In this document: positions 15,086 to 56,876 of the stretch, piece by piece
Numbering within the stretch: the first letter of the stretch is position 1
Layout: each line of letters opens with the position of its first letter
Notes under the pieces: generated by a model
Database searches by the model: none
What the model was told of the DNA's origin: nothing
Seen by the model: the letters and a program-made list of their open reading frames with translations, nothing else
Made by a program: the position numbers and the translations under genes
NCBI GenBank assembly: GCA_947396885.1
Contig: OX377202.1
Coordinates: 34,587,407 to 34,651,406, forward strand
Length of the DNA: 64,000 nucleotides
Source of the DNA: Heligmosomoides polygyrus polygyrus
Taxonomy: Eukaryota; Nematoda; Chromadorea; Rhabditida; Heligmosomidae
Reading direction: 5' to 3'

Positions 15086-15994
15086 AACGGTCACGCAGTA
15101 CGCGACGCTATGTCGTGTATGGGCGGCTCTCCTGTATCCCTGGCCAGGAACATGTGAGTAACCAGACCACCGCTATGGCTCAAGCAACTAAACCCGTGCC
15201 CCAGTCCTCCGCGCGCCGGAGGTGGACTTCTACGACGTCGGTTCCATCCACCTCCGGCAAGGGGCCATCTAATCTCGGGGTTAAACTATCAGGACGTCAT
15301 TAGAATTAGACTAACGGAAACTCCCTCCCAACACGACACGGAATCTGCCTATTCGTCTGCTCTTATAACTGTCGTTCGATCGCATCTGAGTAGGATCTTC
15401 GGACACTGCTTTACAGAAGCCGCAACATCAAATACGACGTTATCGCCCTGCAGGAAACGAAAGGCAGAACGGAAACCATAAGAAGGACCGACCACAACGA
15501 GCTTCTCATTATCGGAGCAAAGGTGGTCAGAAAGAATATTGGCGGAGTTGGATTTCTCGTCAATTCGACAGTGCACCACCAAGTAGACTCTTACAAGATC
15601 ATCAGTCCGCGAGTAGCTGTTCTTCGTCTGGAAACCAAAGACCAAGGAACCATCTCCATCATAAATGGATATGCTCCAACATCTGCGGCCACAGAAGAAG
15701 TAAAGGAGGAATTCTACAAGCTGTTCGAAAGGACTGTCAACGACGAGAAGAGCTACTACAAAGTTGTCGTTGGTGACTTTAATGCTATCGTCGGTACGAA
15801 TGATCACGACGAATGGAGGCTAGGGCCACATGGAACTTTCTCAAGGAACGAAAATGGAGAGCGCCTAATAGACTTCCTATCCGCGTGCCGTGTCTACCAT
15901 GGAAATTCTATGTTTAAGAAGCCTTCAAACCGATGATGGACCTGGGAAAGCCCAAATGGAGAAACACGTTCGGAGATCGACCATGTTCTTATAA
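15021..15994 (+). mobile_element. RTE non-LTR retrotransposon, 5' part with AP-type endonuclease
   Basis: This is the 5' end of an RTE element. It starts with an HDV-like ribozyme, followed by a leader frame beginning MYGRLSCIPGQEHVS at 15115. It then encodes an apurinic-type endonuclease, read with frame breaks from about 15350 to 15990. Catalytic motifs visible are LQETKGRTE (metal-binding Glu), NGYAPTS, and VVGDFNAIVG (catalytic Asp and Asn). The element nicks target DNA and primes reverse transcription from the nick. The frame shifts before the SDH motif. At 15995 it is replaced by Naiad sequence. The copy at 35622 is very similar. Confidence 0.85.
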
Positions 15995-16099
15995 ACTAGT
16001 TCCAGAACAGTCCACTGCGTCATTCAGACACGGTACAGGATCAGGACGTCTACCTAGGAAGGATACAGGTATGTTAGTTAAATCACTCATCCGTCCCCT

Positions 16100-16180
16100 C
16101 CCTTACTGATGAGCACAGGGGGATGGATACTTCTTAGTTTGGTTTTCGTATAAGGGCCCGTGCGAAACGAAAACCAAACT
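16100..16180 (+). ncRNA. Hammerhead-like core with permuted strand order (candidate ribozyme)
   Basis: Three strands match hammerhead junctions. Strand X is CCCTTA (16100-16105), CTGATGA (16106-16112), GCACAGGG (16113-16120). Strand Z is a 13-nt stem arm (16136-16148) ending in CG, then U and A (16149-16150), then TAAGGG (16151-16156). Strand Y is CCCGTGC (16157-16163), GAAA (16164-16167), and the exact complement of the 13-nt arm (16168-16180). Stem I is CCCTTA/TAAGGG, stem II GCAC(A)GGG/CCCGTGC, stem III 13 bp. All conserved core bases are present. The order X-Z-Y is not one of the three natural circular orders, so the fold in cis would be a pseudoknot. Activity is inference. Confidence 0.6.
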
Positions 16181-18247
16181 ATCTCTTTCCTTTTCCATTT
16201 ATCTGCATGCCTTGTTTTGTTCTTCCTTTTATTACATAAGCTAGTATCTGTTGGTTGCTCGAGGGTAACCCGACTCCAACTGATGCTAGTACCTTAATGG
16301 GTTTTGTGAAAAAATTCCTTTACTCAGTTGATACAAGGCTTTCCTTGTTTAGACCAATAGGTCGCCTCTTTTTCCGACCAATGGTCGTCCTATCCGTCTA
16401 ACTGACGGTCCTTCTTTTCAATTCTATATCATATTTTCTACTACTTCCGTGTCCGCATTATATTTGTTCTTTGATATTATACATTTTCCTTACACTCTTC
16501 CCTATATAATAACATAAGATCCTTATTACGTCTTCATTTGCCTTTAATTTCTACTCTCTTCTTCCATAAGCTTATTCACTATTTAACTCATCAAATTTAT
16601 TTTTCTGGCTCTTTGTGTAACAAACATAACAATTCTAATTCAAAGATTTCAAATTGACTGGCTCCTTCTTCCTATTCTCCTATATGGAACGTTGCTTTAG
16701 TGATGGAGCTTGACTCGTGTCCTCTTCATCCTTTTCCTCATAACTTCGTTTACGACCACCTCCACTCTAAACATTATATATCTACTCATTTTATTTTACT
16801 TTATACAAAATTCATCGTATTCTTCTACTTACTTATACTAACCTTTTCCTCATTCCTCTCCTCAACGGCTCCTTCCTTCTCTTCCAGAGCTTGTATGTCT
16901 CCCAATCCAGGCAGTTCTAGTGTTCCTCTCTGTAGTCTTCCATTCTAAAAAAAATTTATATCCAAATAATTGTGTTTCTCAGCTAAATAATTCATTTATA
17001 CACTTACTTCATAGTCCCTTTTTTTCTTTTCGCCTAATAGGTCAGCAACCGGGATTCCTTGCCATTCGGGAAGCTTCATTCCCATCTTTATTGCAGCAAC
17101 AGAAGGTTTCATTCTCTGAATAACTGTTAGTTTAACTTCCACCAAACCTTTATTTATTTTCAGTACTTCTAACTACTCACAATGCTTCTTCCTATTTCCA
17201 AATACCCTCTTCTCACGTGCATCTCTGGCGCTCTTTTACCATGCTTTGAATACAGCTCACCTAGCTTTTTGCGCAACAACAGTCTAAATACATCACATTA
17301 CTTTCTAACCCCAATATTGCCCTTTCTTCTTTGCTTACCCCAAGTTTGTTTCATCACTTGCTCTCAGCGTCGCCTCTTTTATTAGCTCGATACGGGTGCC
17401 ATGTGTTCGGTTGTATTCCATCAGCTTCTTACGACCTTCAGTCAAATAATATTTCCAATACTCATACGACACCCTTGCCTAAATCAAAGTTTTCACTCAT
17501 TTGTTATATTTTAAATTATTCTTTCACTACTTTAACAAATTACCCTCATGGCAGGAATACCACGTGCCTCGCCAGCCGATGTGGGCCACGTAAAGGGAGT
17601 TGGTCTCCCGTCTCCACTGTATCTTAAACACTTCTTCTTACTACCCAATTTCCTAACCTTTAATAACAGTTTTTCTCTCTCACTTACCCGGTAATCACGT
17701 TTGCCAAGTGCGACAGCAATCGATCGTACCTCCAATTGTCTTTATTGGGCAAGCCGATTATTCGTACCCAGTCCACTAGTACACGTCGATTCACGTTCTC
17801 TTGGAACGTTTCCTTACGGCGATCCTGCTCAGCTCTTCCTTTCTAAACAACTCCAATTCACTATCATATTGGTTCCTTTCGTTTTCCTTGTCAACTTATA
17901 CAACTTCTTTAAACTATACTTTCATTTATAAATTTCTTCAACACATTTCCTTTCCCCACTCTTGGGTTTATCCTTTCCTTCTACCAAAATCTTTACTAAT
18001 CTCTTTAAACACGGGGACCACACCCCTTTAACAATAGGGGCTCTTTTGATAGGGTTCATAAAAGTGGTTACAGCAAGTGGGGGTATGTATCTACGCCTTC
18101 ATAAGGGTCTATGCACTTCTCCTACTAACTCTTTAATAATTTCTCTCATCACTTAGGGTTCGCGGGTCCCTTGGGGCAATCCCCCTAAAACCTACCCCTA
18201 GTATATGGATTGGGCCGTCCATATACTCATTTACAGGCCTACCACTA
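16181..18247 (+). other. Pyrimidine-rich leader of Naiad copy 1
   Basis: This stretch of about 2 kb between the hammerhead-like motif and the endonuclease is strongly C/T-rich on the plus strand. Its open frames are rich in S, L, F and P and have no recognisable domain. They are best explained by the base skew rather than by coding. Near 16257-16277 and 52128-52143 the two Naiad leaders share a CTCGAGGG...CTCGA/CCCGAC hairpin-like word. Confidence 0.5.
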
Positions 18248-18784
18248 TTGCTCCCAACATTAACAGCTACTATCTTAATAATCGTTTTCAAAAAAAACAA
18301 GGAAAACGGACATTATCATTTGATTAACTTTGGTACTGATGACCACCCCTCAGCTTGTTCTTCACAATGCAGTCTTTGTTTTCTTATTAATAAAAACAAC
18401 TACATTATTTCCACAACTACTAAACTAAGAATTAAAACCTATGTTAATAACATAGCTAATTGCAGTAGCAGTAATGTAATTTATTGTTTAGAATGCCTAG
18501 AATGCGGGCTTCAATACGTTGGACTTACTACAAGAAAGCTCAAGGATCGTATGAGAGAGCACATGCTCAATATTAAAAAAGGTTCTATTCACAATTATCT
18601 ATATAGCCACTTCACTAATAAATGTCAAAAAAAGCTATACACCTTTTACATACTAGATAATTTAAATGACAACAGCAATAAAGCTGTACTACAAGAAAAA
18701 GAACTTTTCTGGACTCATCTTTTAATCAGCAGCTACCCCTTTGGTAACAACGATAACATAAAATCCTACGGTGATGTATCATAA
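18248..18784 (+). pseudogene. N-terminal GIY-YIG endonuclease domain of Naiad copy 1
   Basis: A continuous frame of 178 codons ends with TAA at 18782-18784. It contains a cysteine cluster CSSQCSLC (residues about 38-45). The GIY-YIG fold signature follows: VIYCLEC, then LQYVGLTTRKLKDRMREH with the catalytic Arg and a His. Near the C-terminus QEKELFWTHLL carries the expected catalytic Glu. In living Naiads this domain and the reverse transcriptase are one protein. Here a TAA separates them, and coding sense resumes just after it in related frames. The domain would nick the target for target-primed reverse transcription. Confidence 0.8.
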
Positions 18785-20756
18785 ATAAATAACCCCCTCA
18801 CTTTTAAGCCAAACCATCCCTATTTTAATCTAAGCATAGTTAAAGAAAGAAAAAGAATTACTCATAAATCTAAAAAACATAAAACTCATTCAAATGTTAT
18901 TGAAGAAACCTATCATTTCCTTAATATTGTAAAAACAGCTGACAAATATAACACTATAAAAAATAAACTATATAAACTTAAAAGGAAAGTTATTAAAAGC
19001 ATTATTGTAAAATGTTACAATGGAGAAATCCTTAAAGAACTTACTAAAGAAAAAGGCTTTATTTTGCTTTGCTTGCTTTGTAAATTTCAGTTTTATTGCA
19101 AAAATAAAAATATTTACATTTCCAAAAATACTCATTCTTAATTTTGCAATCTTAAAACGCCTTATATTCACAAAGTATTAGACAAAATAGATATAGGGAA
19201 GATTGTGCGTACCAATGAAATAACTAACCTTATCAAAATCCATTCGAAAGTTAATTATGTTCTTTTTAGAATCATTTATACATATAACCCACCTATTTCC
19301 AAAACAGTTTTCAACTATAACAAGATTCTTAAAAATCTTAATGATTGTGATATTATAGGAATAACGGAAAACCGTTGCATTTGTAGTAATCCTTTATTCA
19401 AAAAATATATACATCCCCAATTTAAACATATAGCTACTGGTGACTACGATGTTATACCTAACCCAGAAGTTAAACATTTACTTAATAAAGGTTGCAAATT
19501 CAGACCTTCTCCAAATGTCAACAAAAAAGTTTTCGTTCAATGGATAAATCAAAACGCCGAAGATTTTACAAAAACTATTAAAAATAAATATAAACTACCC
19601 AATAATATATGTAATAAAATTAAACTATTAATTAGTAATAATTTCAAAAAGAAACTTAAACCACTATTGTACGTTAACTCCTTCAATAATGATAACTGCA
19701 TACCAAACAAAACCATTACTAGCATTAAAAAACTTCAAAATAATTTCGTTTTCTGTCCCTTAGATAAAGCCTCAAATAATTATGGAATAATTTGTAAAAA
19801 ATTTTACATCTTAACTTTGATGAAGGACATGGGAATATCAATAGTCAATAATACCATTAACATGTCAACTACCAATAATACTTATAGCGTACATCCAGAG
19901 AATAATCTAAATGATGTCATTAAAAAACACTCACGAATCATTAACAACATCGATATAACTACGTCTACCTAAATAGGAAAAATACCGTTTATCTATGGTA
20001 TTCCTAAATTGCATAAAAATCCCTTAAAATTCAGATTCATTACTGGGGCAGCAAATAGCACCATAAAATCCCTTTCGTTACTTCTAACTAGTATTTTAAA
20101 ATTTATCAGAAATCACTTTAAAAATTATGTAGAAGCAGTTAGGACTAGGAACTCAACCACCATTGGATATTGGTCTATTAATAATATTAATATCAGCGAA
20201 AAACTTCAAAACATTCATGGTAATAATTTAAAACTGTTTTCTGCTGACTTCAGTGAGATGTTCACAAATTTGCCTCATAACATTATACTCAAAAACATTA
20301 AGGAAATTCTTCAGATTTGCTTTAAAAACTCACAAAAAACATTCATTGCTTTTAATGGTTATAAAAGTATCTTCTACACCAACACAACAAGTAATAAAAA
20401 ATTCAAATACTATAATATCATGGATATAATTTACTTTACTGATTTTATTCTCAATAACTGCTTTTGTAAATTTTCAGAACATCTCTTTATACAAGAACTG
20501 GTGTCCCACAAGGTAGTAACGTTAGTCCTTTGCTAGCCGATCTCACACTATCATATTTTGAATATCTTATTCCAAAAGTCAACCAAACCATTCCATTTTC
20601 GAACCTTTCCGCCATATGGACGATTTACTAATAATACACAACAGCAATTCCAATTTTATATTTCACACGCTAAATAATATTTACCACAACATAATCAAAT
20701 TAGATATCACACACTTAAATGATTACAGTTGCAATTATCTAGACTTAGAAATTCAA
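18785..20756 (+). pseudogene. Reverse transcriptase part of Naiad copy 1
   Basis: The linker encodes NHPYFNLSIVKERKRI and, after two breaks, the main frame 19205-19972 with the CxC motif and LDKASNNYGIICKKFY. After a stop, 20009-20536 gives the LHKNPLKFRFITGAAN block and motif A SADFSEMFTNLP with its catalytic Asp. A one-base shift near 20497 is needed to read motif B GVPQGSNVSPLLADL. Another is needed for motif C MDDLLI, which holds the catalytic Asp pair (near 20616-20633). These reverse transcriptases are related to telomerase. Sequence ends at DLEIQ, so the thumb is missing. The number of breaks is small, suggesting a fairly young copy. Confidence 0.8.
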
Positions 20757-35621: not shown

Positions 35622-35686
35622 CCCCTTCATGTGTAACCTCATCGCGGTGAAGGGGTGAAGATCACTTAGTGATGGCTAACGGCACA
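35622..35686 (+). ncRNA. HDV-like ribozyme, RTE copy 2
   Basis: P1 CCCCTTC (35622-35628) pairs GAAGGGG (35649-35655). P3 ACC/GGT closes the loop TCATCGC. P4 is ATCAC/GTGAT (35661-35665 with 35669-35673). The candidate catalytic C is 35676, in GGCTAAC. P2 is weaker than in copy 1: TGTGTA (35630-35635) against GGCACA gives four Watson-Crick pairs, one G-T and one mismatch. It may be partly decayed. Confidence 0.8.
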
Positions 35687-35715
35687 AATGGTCACGCAGT
35701 ACACGATGCTTTGTC

Positions 35716-36534
35716 GTGTATGGGCGGCTCTCATCTATCCCTGGCCAGGAACATGTGAGTAACCAGACCACCGTCATGGCTCAAACAACTAAACCCGGGC
35801 CCCAGTCCTCCGCGCGCCGGAGGTGGACTTCTACGACGTCGGTTGCATCCACCTCCGGCGAGCGGCCATTTAATCTCGGAGTTAAACTATCAGGACGTCA
35901 TTGGAATCGGACTACCGGAATCTCCCTCCCACCACGACACGGAAACTGCCTATTCGTCTGCACTTATAACTGTCGTTCGATCGCATCTGAGCAGGATCTT
36001 CGGACACTGCTTTACAGAAGCGGCAACATCAAATACGACGTTATCGCCCCGCAGAAAACGAAAGGCAGAACGGAAACCATAAGAAGGACCGACACCAACG
36101 AGCTTCTCATTATCGGAGCAAAGGTGGACAGAAATAATATTGGCGGAGTTGGATTTCTCGTCAATTCCGCAGTGCACCACCTAGTAGACTCTTACAAGAT
36201 CATCAGTCCGCGAGTAGCCGTTCTTCGTATGAAAACCAAAGGTCAAGGAACCATCTCCATCATAAATGGATATGCTCCAACATCTCCGGCCACAGACGAA
36301 GAAAAGGAGGAATTCTACAAGCTGTTCGAAAGGACTGTCAACGACGAGAAGAGCTACTACAAAGTTGTCGTTGGTGACTTTAACGCTATCGTCGGTACGA
36401 ATGATCACGACGAATGGAGGCTAGGACCACATGGAACTTCCTCAAGGAACGAAAACGGAGAGCGCCTGATAGACTTCCTATCCGCGTGCCGTCTCTACCA
36501 TGGAACTTCTATGTTAAAGAAGCCTTCAAACTGA
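35716..36534 (+). pseudogene. RTE endonuclease frame, copy 2
   Basis: A 272-codon frame starts at MYGRLSSIPGQEHVS and enters the AP-type endonuclease near residue 75 (NCLFVCTYNCRSI). The metal-binding Glu motif reads APQKTKGRTE, where the copy at 15021 has LQETKGRTE, so the catalytic Glu is replaced by Lys. NGYAPTS and VVGDFNAIVG are intact. The frame stops at TGA 36534, just before the C-terminal motif, which continues in another frame. Inactive as it stands. Confidence 0.75.
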
Positions 36535-36535
36535 C

Positions 36536-37106
36536 GATGGACCTGGGAAAGCCCAAATGGAGAAACAGGTTCGGAGACGACCATGTTCTTACAAACATAC
36601 GCTGGAGTCTGTTCGACGTCTCCGTGCTGCCTTCATTTGACACCGGCTCGGATCACCGTCTTGTCCTTGCGAAGCCGACTTTCAAAAAGAGTATGTTCAA
36701 GCGTGACACTCATAAACCGGCACCGGTGAGGATCCCCACATTCAAGTCTGAGGAGTTGGAATATGCAATAAAGTCGTACGATTGGAATCTTCTTGAAGAT
36801 CCATCGGAAGACTACGACCTCCTCTCCAAAGGACTGTTGGAATGTGCTAGCAGCTCTTGCGAAGCCACTTCACCGTCTGCTTCAAGACTCAACGCACATG
36901 CGATTAGGCTCTTGGAGCAAAGAAGAGCTGTCAAACAGGATCCTAATGCTTCCCATCTGGAAAAAGTCACCATCTCGAAGATCTGTCGAATTGCAGTAAA
37001 GGAGTCCATTCAAGCCTACAGAAGATTGATGCTGCTAGAAGCCGCTGGGAAAGGTACAAGCATAAAGCGCTGCAAACGAGATCTCTGTGTGATCAGAAGG
37101 CAATAA
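36536..37106 (+). pseudogene. RTE endonuclease end and linker, copy 2
   Basis: The frame reads TMDLGKPKWRNRFGDDHVL and then FDTGSDHRLVLAK, the last endonuclease motif with its catalytic His. It continues through a basic linker (KSMFKRDTHKPAPVRIP) to AYRRLMLLEAAGKG and IRRQ, followed by a stop at 37104. In an intact RTE this would be one protein with the preceding frame. Confidence 0.75.
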
Positions 37107-52075: not shown

Positions 52076-55000
52076 CAGTCTTCTTCCTCTTCTAGAACCG
52101 TTTTGTATATGCTGACGTCTAGTGGGAACTCGAGGGAAACTCGATACCACTAAATGGTGGTACCTTTACTGGGTTGATTCATATTTGCTTTGCAACCTTT
52201 TTAATTTTGGAGGCTTGGATTGGGTCGACCGTCGCATAGGCGGTCTTTTCGTTTCTTTCCCATAGACTACTAAACAACTATCCTCTCTTTTGCTAATCTG
52301 ACACTACACACTTAGATTCACTTTCTTGCAAATTTTATTTTGTCAACTAACAAGATATACTAGCTAGAACACACAGACAAAATATTTTACACATTGTTTC
52401 ATATCTGCCTTTTTTGGAAGGAAATGTTGCTTGCCTTTCGGTCATGGAACGCTTGCGTCCAGAGTTCTTGCTTGAGCTTAGTCGGCTTGCAGTGGGATAA
52501 AATAAGAAGATTTTAGTATTTTAAAACAATGAGCAATTTAAACTCACGGGTTTTCTATTTGTTCTTCAGCATTAGCTTCCTCATTGACTGACTCTTCGGT
52601 GACATCTATTCCGTCCAACTTCAAGGAGCCGTAGACGAGTTTTCCCTCCTTAAACAATGGATAAATTTGCTGATTGCTACAATTTAGTAATCGCTTACAT
52701 CTATCAATCTCTTCTCATCCAGGGTCAACATCTCGTCCAGTTTACTTTCGCTCCAGTCATGCATAGACATGTTTAACTTCACTGCAGCTACTGCTGGTTT
52801 CAGGAACTGTAATTGACTTATTTTAATACATTCCCTAGTTTACATAACTTTTAAACTTCCTGATTCTTCTCCAATACTTAATTTCCCTTCACTATGGCGA
52901 CATCCTTTTCACGCTTCCCAGCCTGACGATATTTTTCCTTGATGAGCCTTCGAATGTATAACCTTAAAATCTATCACAGTTTATTTTATGTAGTTTACTA
53001 GCAACTTACCCTAATCTATCTTGCTTTTGTAGGGTAAAAGATTTTTCCCTGCTTTTTTATATCAGTATTGTTCTTTAAATTGTAGTCGTATAAGGTCTTC
53101 CGTCCTTCTCTCATGAAGAATTTCCAGAAATCATGCTTTAGTCTAGCCTAAAGTAGTTGTTTAACATATTTTAATAATTTTTTCTCTAATGTACTTAACA
53201 TCTGCAATAGTATTTTTGTGCTTGTTGGCTTCAGAAATATTATTTCGTGGTAGTAGTATTATTCCCATAGTTTGTTGACTATTTGTTTAATTTAGTTGTT
53301 TATGTAACATTGTGCTACACATAATTAATAAGTTACTATATATTTATGATATCTAGTGTTGGTACATTAAATATAGTACTGCATGTAGTAGGACTACGGG
53401 CACAGCCAAAAAATTAAACAAAAATGCCAGGTCTTTTGTATTGTATTTATACGATTATTAGTTCGTATTTCGATTCGCACACAATTTGCCCACGGGACCA
53501 CGTAAGAGTCCATAGATTGGTATCATCACCTTTACATTTTTACCTCACTAATTTTCAATTCGACTCTTTACCTATTCCTTGTTTCGAAACATTGTATATG
53601 CTCTTTCTAGTTGCTAACCTCACTTTCTAACAATTCTTTAATGTTTAACTAAGCAGTAAGTTTCTTCCTTTTTAGCATTATACCCTCCACTCGCTCGCTT
53701 TCTGGTCTGCTAAAAGGGACGCACCTCTTCAATAGAAAAAATAGGGGATTTATTAATGGGGCATATAAAAATAAGAGTTCGCATGGGAGAATAGCTTCTT
53801 CGCCTCCATAAAAGCCTTCCATTCGTCATATATCCCTTTTAAGCATTCCACGGACACCATAGAATTTGCGGTAGCCTAGCGGCAAGTCTGCTAAATACTT
53901 TCTTCCTTTGCATTTAGTATAGACTGGTCAAACAACAATTTGCAGTATGCTAAAACGCTATGTACAAATGACTCTAAATATTACTTGTTCAACAGATTCT
54001 ACAAAAGTAAGCTTGGTAACATATACAGTTTACAACACCTTGGTAATCCACTAACAACGACAAAATGTAGTCCCAACTGTATATATGCACATTGATTAAT
54101 AAAGAAAGCTATATTGTAAGTAATACCACTAGACTTAAGATTCACACGTGCTAAGTCCTGGTAGTAACTCTAACTCTGGAAACGAGACATATGCATTAAT
54201 TGCAGACAATGCAGTATGCAATACGTAGGCTTAGCCACAAAAAAAGCTTAAAGTTTGAATTTAAAAAAACTCTTGTACCATATTAATAAAAAAGATGTCA
54301 ACAATTACCTCTATGAATACTTCAATAAAAAATGCGTCAGTAAAGAAATTACCCTCACAATTCTTGATAGCTTAGAAGATAATTGTGGTGAGAAGTGTTA
54401 GCTGATGAAGAACGTTTTTGGATCAAATTAATGAATACAGCTTATACGTTTTGATTAAATGACAACATTAAAGGATATGGTAGTATATCTAATTTTTCTA
54501 ATCCTCCTGTGAATAAACCCTCTAGGCCATATTATTGTTTCAGAGCTGTTAAAACTAGAAGACGTAGTACTAAAAGAAATAAAAATAAAACACCTCTAGA
54601 TATAACTTTATCTTTTGTTTATCAATGATTGTCTCTGCAACCAGTAGTATTGAATTATTTAGGTTCATTAATTCGTTAAACAAAAACATATAAAGAACTC
54701 TTAGTTTTATGTTATAATTCTAACTTCTTTCTGTCTGCATAAACGACGAGGTTAGGCAAAAACTCCTATGCATTCTTTGTAGATTTCAGAACACCTCTAG
54801 TACAAGTAAGATCAGTTTTTTGATGTTAATACTGCATATATTCACAACATACTCGATCAGAATAACTTCGACCAGATTATTAATACTAGTTATAACAAAA
54901 TTATTGTTGGTTGTAACAACACTTTTCAAAGGGGCATGTTAGTATACGAATACAACATGCCTATTTTTAAAACAATTTTTAATTACAATCTGGTATTGCT

Positions 55001-55560
55001 TAATCAAAATATTGAGCAAATGCGTAGCTTAATTAATGGAAACTGTAATTGTGATTACGTAGAGTTCAATAGGTATAAGGATAAAAATTATGAACATGTA
55101 ATTACAGGAGATTTAAGGATTATCAAAAGTTCTTTACTCTATAATATTATGAACAAGGTAACCAAGTTTCGTCTAGGGAGAAATTGAAGCAAGCAGAAAA
55201 TTTTGGAATGGCTTAACAAAACTTTACATTCCACCACTACATCCTTACAATAAATACAGACTTAACAGTAAACAAGGACAAGATATTTACAAATGCCTTC
55301 GTAACAAAATGCTTTTTAATTTTAAAACTATGCTTTATACAAAAAAAACAACAGCTACGACACATCTTTATTTGATAAAAGATGTCTAAGTACAATACGA
55401 AATAAATTTGTAATATGTCCATTAGATAAGGCTAGTAATAATCATGGTATCATTTGTAGAAAACTTCTATATTTCTACTGTCGTAAAAGAAATGAATTTT
55501 AATAACCAGAATATTAATAGTACTTATGAATAGGAAAGTGAACAACAAGGCATACAAATA
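51988..55560 (+). mobile_element. Naiad-type Penelope-like retroelement, copy 2 (decayed)
   Basis: After a leader of about 2.2 kb, the endonuclease remnant gives CRQCSMQYVGLATKKA near 54205 and DNIKGYGSISN near 54460. The reverse-transcriptase side follows: PIFKTIFNYNLVLLNQ and the CxC motif GNCNCDYVEFN at 54936-55187, then CPLDKASNNHGIICRK near 55418. Again the endonuclease precedes the reverse transcriptase. Many stops and indels mark an old copy. The 5' boundary is uncertain; the hammerhead-like motif at 51988 is taken as near it. The 3' end stops near 55560. Confidence 0.75.
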
Positions 55561-55574
55561 AAATAAAAAAAAGA

Positions 55575-55765
55575 AAAAAAGAAAGGAGCTATTTTGGTTT
55601 TCGTTTCTCACGGGCACTTACACGAAAACCAAACTAACAATAAAAAATATCCGTTCCCCTGTGCTGGGAAGGGTGAGAGATCTAGTCAACCTATCTGTGT
55701 CCTTCCTAGGTGGATGTCCTGATCCTATGCCGTGTCTTGATGACTCTGAGGACTCTTCTAAAAGT
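55575..55765 (-). mobile_element. Inverted 5'-end fragment of a copy-1-type Naiad
   Basis: Its reverse complement follows 16025-16190 closely: GGATCAGGACATCCACCTAG, GCACAGGGG, TTAGTTTGGTTTTCGTG and GAAACGAAAACCAAA. The stem II and III pairings survive, but the CTGATGA segment is lost and the UH position reads UG. Only about 190 bp is present, next to the 3' end of copy 2. Confidence 0.7.
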
Positions 55766-55984
55766 AAATTAAAAGGTTAATCAGAAGAGTCTATGTAAGA
55801 GATCAAGTACGCTGAAGAAAATGAGAAAATCCAGAACGTAATAACGTAGGTGCAATCAAGAAGTTATGAAGTAACCACAAAGTAACCACAATAAAGAATG
55901 TCAAAGTGCATGGGATTAGACGTGAAACTGAATGTTCTGTAACATTTTGATGGGACCCACTCCAAGAAAGGGTGAGGTCAAAGG

Positions 55985-56118: not shown

Positions 56119-56838
56119 ATAGGTTGGTGAAAAAGTTTTGGACCGCAGCGTAATTTTTTCAAAATTTTATTGTTTCTTTTGTAAGCGAATTTAATCTACA
56201 AAATAGTTACCATTTACATCTACAACCATCTGCCATCTGACAGGGAGATCATGAGATCCTTTCTTCCAGAATGAAGTCAGCTGTGACTCCAAGAAGTGCT
56301 CCACCTCAGATTCCAGTTCACCTATCCCTTAGGTGTTGCTTGAGAGCTCGAAGGAGGTAGCAGTGGCGCAAGATCTGGCGAATACAGCGGGTGGGGCAGC
56401 ACCTCTCACCTAAGCTCCTGCAACTTCTGGCGAGACGACCTTGCAATGTGGATGGCGAGCTTTGTAGTGGAGAAGGTAAACATCCCTCCAACACCTCTCC
56501 TCCTCCTTGACGGAGTACTGGGCCTTCGATATGTATGGTTAGCGAGAAAGAACCAGGATTCATCTTCCGTGACGACATTCTCGAGAAAGTCTTATTACAA
56601 AAACGAGCAAAGAGAGACTAAGCGATAGTCAGCCGCGAAGTCTTGTTAGGGTCACGGAGTCACTCAGTCTTCACTGCAATCGCTGTATTTATATGCCCTC
56701 AGAAGCAAATTGCCAGTATAGGAAATGTTCTAGAATGTTTGTGCTACTACTACGTAGACTAAACGTCCCTGGGGAAGTTCCTTTTAAATCTTGAAGAATT
56801 TTCAATTTTTTGGTGCAAACTTTTTCACAACCTAATAT
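56119..56838 (-). mobile_element. Mariner-like transposon, internally decayed
   Basis: The terminal repeats TAGGTTGGTGAAAAAGTTTT (56120) and its near-complement AAACTTTTTCACAACCTAAT (56818-56837) enclose about 720 bp, with TA at the borders. The minus strand encodes a broken transposase: TEDESWFFLANHTY near 56560 (first catalytic Asp), HPLYSPDLAPL near 56385 (the mariner YSPDLAP signature), and GRWL with VNG-like residues near 56230. The N-terminal DNA-binding domain is missing. A dead, internally deleted copy. Confidence 0.75.
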
Positions 56839-56876
56839 TTCACCAATGGAGATGTAAACTAACGAGGTAAAGGGTC

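Follow-up and report, generated by a model that had tools for sequence, protein, structure and literature searches.

A candidate type-CSG hammerhead ribozyme near the 5' end of a Penelope-like element in a nematode genome

Eckert, Friedrich, Weinberg, and Weinberg (2023) laid out the six block orders of the hammerhead ribozyme (PMC10085705) and counted 583 predicted sequences of type SGC, two similar sequences of type CSG, and one GCS candidate (PMC10085705). In vitro, both CSG RNAs are cut where expected, with rates of 0.004 and 0.026 per minute, into fragments of 48/49 nt and 29 nt, with some full-length RNA remaining in the case of CSG-1 (PMC10085705). In types SGC and CSG, stems I and II are tied together on their outer sides by a helix, and in type SGC their other sides are joined by a linker of typically 3 nt (PMC10085705). 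The CSG sequences come from metagenomic DNA only and, the GCS candidate aside, none of the RNAs was located in the genome of a known organism (PMC10085705). Covariation in CSG is modest, and its discoverers considered the type likely valid, with a biological relevance less supported than that of SGC (PMC10085705). The word "Penelope" occurs once in that paper, in the reference list. Penelope-like elements are reported as hammerhead carriers; further related papers are PMC7761336, PMC6155905, PMC11472068, and PMC10941475, and the title of one cited paper speaks of "permuted domains."

Here we describe a locus of the C-S-G order in a 64-kb stretch of DNA from the nematode Heligmosomoides polygyrus polygyrus (hereafter the window, numbered from its first letter). 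The whole core spans 16100-16181 on the plus strand, with CUGAnGA, GAAA, and UH all joined by stems I, II, and III of 6, 4, and 14 bp (24 bp in total in a scan of the window for all six orders). It opens with the stem I 5' strand CCCUUA (16100-16105), the CUGAUGA segment of block C (16106-16112), and the stem II 5' strand GCAC (16113-16116). Within block C, G16108 corresponds to the conserved G of CUGAnGA, whose alteration did away with cleavage in the work of Eckert et al. (PMC10085705). Block S follows with the first strand of stem III, TAGTTTGGTTTTCG (16135-16148), and with U16.1 and A17 (16149-16150); by analogy with the hammerhead, cleavage is predicted after A16150, between A16150 and T16151. 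Downstream lie the stem I 3' strand UAAGGG (16151-16156), a 3-nt linker, CCC, between stems I and II (16157-16159), the stem II 3' strand GUGC (16160-16163), the GAAA segment of block G (16164-16167), and the second strand of stem III, CGAAAACCAAACTA (16168-16181). The stem strands and block G were read from both the letters and the scan, and block C and the CCC linker from the letters. The conserved core pairs G10.1-C11.1, A15.1-U16.1, and C15.2-G16.2 are present, and stem III has 14 bp, or 15 if the core pair T16149-A16167 is counted.

A preliminary description of this DNA had proposed a hammerhead core in a permuted, pseudoknotted strand order, X-Z-Y, at the 5' end of a Naiad element. Every segment that it named is found at 16100-16181 together with the three stems, and the scan, open to six orders, arrived at the same one, C (CUGAUGA), S (site), and G (GAAA) from 5' to 3'. 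The cut that it predicted fits the position in the putative core, and the setting close to the start of a Penelope-like element agrees with a GIY-YIG frame that precedes reverse transcriptase (RT) downstream. Its length for stem I (6 bp) stands, whereas stem III, given as 13 bp, reads as 14 bp. Its assertion that known hammerheads are limited to X-Y-Z or rotations of it no longer holds, because X-Z-Y has been published as type-CSG by Eckert et al. (2023, PMC10085705). Taken as a whole, that interpretation is partly supported; at the level of sequence, there is good support for a permuted hammerhead.

A fourth helix, absent from the preliminary description, completes the predicted structure. 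Helix IV pairs a 5' arm, AUCCGUCCCCU (16089-16099, plus strand), with a 3' arm, GGGGGAUGGAU (16118-16128, plus strand), in 11 contiguous pairs, 2 of them G-U, according to the letters and RNA folding, and it fits the published stem I-II interaction helix. It directly adjoins stem I, and one A separates its other side from stem II, so that a helix bridging stems I and II, as in type CSG, is predicted here too. Both this helix and the CCC linker lie outside the scan criteria, yet they are present. The locus can be described as two hairpins joined by a 6-nt linker (16129-16134, plus strand): hairpin IV (16089-16128), with the loop CCCUUA CUGAUGA GCAC A, and hairpin III (16135-16181), with the loop side UA UAAGGG CCC GUGC GAAA. 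The loops are complementary at CCCUUA/UAAGGG, which is stem I, and at GCAC/GUGC, which is stem II.

Other pairings in this region were considered and dropped. The 7-bp bulged stem II of the preliminary description (GCAC-A-GGG/CCCGTGC) is possible on paper, but its extension needs G16118-G16120, in competition with helix IV; we set it aside because the 11-pair helix takes the same three outer G's into a fuller pairing and agrees with the published model. An alternative bridging register, 16095-16099/16117-16121, had pair probabilities of only 0.005-0.022. The nested minimum-energy fold places a small mispaired stem inside the block C loop, and flanking sequence matters, since folding from 16095, with the outer 5' arm missing, pairs the CCCUU of stem I with the G run.

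The core lies far beyond chance expectation. Our scan covered both strands and looked for CTGANGA, GAAA, and T followed by A, C, or T, arranged in any of the six orders and with stems no shorter than 4/4/4 bp, and 16100-16181 was its single match in the whole 64-kb window; the orders of types I to III were open to it, and none came up. Among 1,000 dinucleotide-preserving shuffles of the window in 4-kb chunks, 7 gave any match (2 CGS and 1 of each of the other five orders), and the highest total was 16 bp versus 24 bp at the locus (0/1,000 above 16). The minimum free energy of the region has a z-score of -4.73, with none of 200 shuffles equally stable. Individual ingredients are more common: CTGANGA occurs 42 times in the window versus 33.6 expected, and hairpins with 16- to 23-nt loops and 10 or more pairs (G-U included) number 66 in its 128,000 nt of strand, a count that includes both locus hairpins and takes palindromic hairpins on both strands. 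No second candidate was found in the window among stem III/GAAA hairpins with an adjoining CTGATGA. An Rfam search recognized no hammerhead at the locus, even at E ≤ 10.

As a control, 159 viral loci (1.43 Mb), most of them picked via CSG-like patterns, were scanned with looser stem limits. They yielded five ordinary-looking type II (GSC) hammerheads of 15 to 21 bp, four weak matches in other orders of 10 to 12 bp, and no CSG core. Four type II hammerheads sit inside 1.6 kb of an IMG/VR contig (L135:7539-9141), and one is on a separate contig (L121:3622-3677). Pattern searches of viral contigs returned no match for block C plus stem III, no match for the conserved upstream block, and two matches for the DNA pattern GTTTGGTTTTCGTNTAAG, both judged to be chance since the partner strand is absent from both. 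A CSG pattern had no match in genome contigs, and two looser CSG patterns matched 65 and 92 stretches of viral contigs (80 of the 92 among the matches listed). Because the patterns fix several stem bases, other CSG ribozymes in viral contigs may have escaped.

The carrier is a Penelope-like element, copy A (15997-20747, plus strand). Its 5' boundary probably lies at about 15997: similarity to an RTE element (94% to 35622-36596) ends at 15996, where the other RTE copy continues in frame, and the start of similarity to a second copy of the ribozyme region, copy B, varies among alignments from 15988 to 16004. The 3' end is cut at about 20748 by an RTE-like piece. A GIY-YIG endonuclease frame (18140-18784, plus strand; Pfam PF01541, 23.4 bits versus a cutoff of 22.6) lies ahead of RT sequence in the same frame (19142-20536, plus strand), which was recognized by protein similarity and is broken by stops. 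Stops in the frame of the element at 18782, 19139, 19970, and 20534 indicate that copy A is decayed; the ribozyme core is still intact. Pieces of the RT are 46% identical to the Cooperia oncophora protein P0002 (PF00078) and 52% identical to protein P0001, and Cooperia, also a nematode, is the nearest named relative. A Pfam search of 19142-20536 gave the RT no match of its own, and protein searches with pieces of the element gave 1, 2, and 2 matches at E ≤ 0.001. Peptide patterns from the RT matched 41 stretches of viral contigs (pattern from 19142-19969) and 60 stretches of genome contigs (pattern from 19973-20533), none of which encodes a relative. Between the ribozyme and these frames, the leader (16200-18000), nearly 2 kb long, is pyrimidine-rich, with a GC skew of -0.35 and an AT skew of -0.22 over 16001-18000.

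The order of GIY-YIG ahead of RT in a single frame is Naiad-like, and a plus-strand element at 54071-55466 has its matches in the same order, GIY-YIG and then RT. Endonuclease before RT is the arrangement of the Naiad clade of Penelope-like elements, which, according to the preliminary description, are reported to lack canonical hammerheads. Tandem copies that form pseudo-LTRs are a general trait of Penelope-like elements. At this locus, copy A breaks off before its 3' end, at about 20748, and copy B lies apart on the other strand.

Besides copy B, blastn and tblastn searches of the window with the element turned up pieces of two further elements. Copy B (55577-55775, minus strand) retains hairpin III, has lost block C, and has G in place of the cleavable A. 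Its stretch 55577-55759 is 74% identical to 16004-16194, and the longer alignment of 55577-55775 with 15988-16194 is 73% identical. Agreement is higher in hairpin III (43/47 positions) than in the sequence that flanks the two hairpins on the outside (16000-16088 and from 16182 to about 16230; 103/138, Fisher P = 0.013). Left out of this comparison were the positions before 16000 (8/15 agree), the helix IV arms (16/20), the block C loop (6/6 aligned, with 12 gap columns), and the linker (4/6). Copy B is without 14 nt that carry stem I and most of CUGAUGA; its cleavage position is G, its position 11.1 is A, and stem I and stem III have one change each, so that it should be inactive. We judged a deletion in copy B far more likely than the opposite history, a 14-nt insertion that brought block C into copy A. 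The comparison of pairing, with copy B and its deleted block C as the one relative, gave no covariation. The layout in the two copies suggests that the two-hairpin arrangement predates both.

Copy B (55577-55792, minus strand) adjoins the plus-strand element, in which the RT ends abruptly at about 55470-55500, and the 5' edge of copy B has an 11-bp inverted repeat (55751-55791). The plus-strand piece at 54071-55466 and a minus-strand piece at 64000-59408 belong to two more Penelope-like elements, and the latter is split at about 63580-60460 by sequence with an RVT_1 frame. By eye, about 56120-56850 resembles part of a mariner-type transposon with inverted ends.

We consider it probable that the locus is a type-CSG hammerhead near the 5' end of the element, whose transcript would cut itself in cis between A16150 and U16151. 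The two hairpin loops would pair twice, CCCUUA with UAAGGG as stem I and GCAC with GUGC as stem II, and this double pairing would give CUGAUGA, GAAA, and the UA step the positions that they have in an ordinary hammerhead; helix IV and the 3-nt CCC linker would replace the usual contact between stems I and II. The fold would arise in cis while the RNA is being transcribed, part of the outer pairing in hairpins III and IV would stay open, and the element's protein would perhaps assist, as in the Anolis element PAc, where the hammerhead needed the protein of the element for cutting in vitro (PMC11167929). The predicted fragments are 62 nt (16089-16150) and 31 nt (16151-16181). Such cleavage could define the 5' terminus of the element RNA or, where copies stand in tandem, separate the units. 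The start of the integrated copy seems to precede the predicted cut by about 154 nt, so its source RNA was probably uncut there; uncut RNA also served for insertion of PAc, for which cleavage was not required in vitro (PMC11167929).

Geometry poses a difficulty for this mechanism. A rough straight-stack model sets a distance of about 92 Å between the distal ends of helix IV and stem III, and a 6-nt linker spans about 42 Å. Because only these 6 nt join the hairpins, cutting in cis would need outer pairs to open. Opening about 6 of them would cost about 7 kcal/mol, and stems I and II would contribute about -9.9 kcal/mol in duplex energies without loop terms. The same geometric tension was pointed out by Eckert et al. 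for a few SGC ribozymes (PMC10085705).

The chief rival to cleavage in cis is a core assembled between two RNA copies, in tandem or dimeric RNA, where hairpin IV of one would meet hairpin III of the other and the cut would need both. Such a reaction would avoid the strain that the short linker imposes on the modeled cis fold, and the minimal type I hammerheads of Penelope-like elements are reported as possibly acting as dimers, and the elements as standing in tandem arrays. We nevertheless regard it as unlikely: both published CSG ribozymes cut while transcribed as single-unit RNAs (PMC10085705), and no tandem was seen at the locus, where copy B lies 39 kb off on the opposite strand. Copy B bears on another reading as well, in which the hairpins serve a different purpose, such as protein binding or the start of reverse transcription, and the core in copy A is an idle leftover. 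Its hairpin III is retained (43/47) with the catalytic parts gone, reverse transcription of PAc starts at an AC-rich stem-loop downstream of the hammerhead (PMC11167929), one strand of hairpin III is AC-rich here, and cleavage is dispensable for PAc insertion in vitro. We find this reading quite doubtful, given that all core positions are intact in copy A and that copy B, with its 14-nt deletion, may simply be decayed.

It is very improbable that chance placed a long hairpin beside CTGATGA and short complementary stretches. CTGANGA is somewhat more frequent in the window than expected (42 versus 33.6), and hairpins this large are no rarity there, but no shuffle in 1,000 exceeded 16 bp against the 24 bp observed, none of the 159 viral loci gave a CSG match at looser limits, and the bridging helix and linker also agree with the published model. 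Cleavage in cis by a type-CSG hammerhead is the reading that we favor.

The block order itself is already published as type-CSG. What the locus adds is a carrier element, a description as two hairpins with a fourth helix, and the strain problem. In the open-licence part of PubMed Central, we found no second paper with the term type-CSG, and none, judged by title and abstract, that puts such a ribozyme in a retroelement. We tentatively propose, as a possibility that deserves some credence, that CSG is the native self-cutting device of one group of Naiad-type Penelope-like elements in nematodes, that this group is the source of both orphan metagenomic CSGs, and that a double kiss of two hairpin loops builds the catalytic center. 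If this is true, one hairpin bears CUGAUGA and the other bears GAAA and the cut site, and the element RNA could be cut only once both hairpins meet, in one RNA or between neighboring copies. With this locus, a rare ribozyme type, here a predicted self-cutter, acquires a likely home in animal mobile DNA, and the permuted form becomes tied to Penelope-like elements, the reported hosts of ordinary hammerheads. As a third CSG example, and one in an identifiable retroelement, the locus is a pointer to further copies and hence to covariation. It also poses a structural question, that of two strong hairpins, 6 nt apart, facing each other.

Among known systems, the Naiad clade resembles the carrier in having GIY-YIG ahead of RT. 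The minimal type I hammerheads reported from Penelope-like elements and Terminons share with the locus a core within a Penelope-like element. They are reported to have the order C-G-S, to lack helix III or have a minimal one, and perhaps to act as dimers, whereas the locus has the order C-S-G and a 14-bp stem III; neither C-G-S nor a very short or missing stem III was found here. The SGC ribozymes (HRIMA-1 and variants) share with it a bridging helix and a stem I-II linker, typically of 3 nt; they differ in the order S-G-C and in their metatranscriptome source (PMC10085705). CSG-1 and CSG-2 have in common with the locus the order C-S-G, the core CUGAnGA/GAAA/UH, three pseudoknotted stems, and a bridging helix. 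The 3' fragments are also similar, 29 nt in CSG-1 and CSG-2 and a predicted 31 nt here. In the locus, stem III has 14 bp, the bridging helix 11 pairs, and the linker between the hairpins 6 nt, and whereas these two ribozymes are metagenomic, with no named organism, the candidate described here has a Penelope-like carrier.
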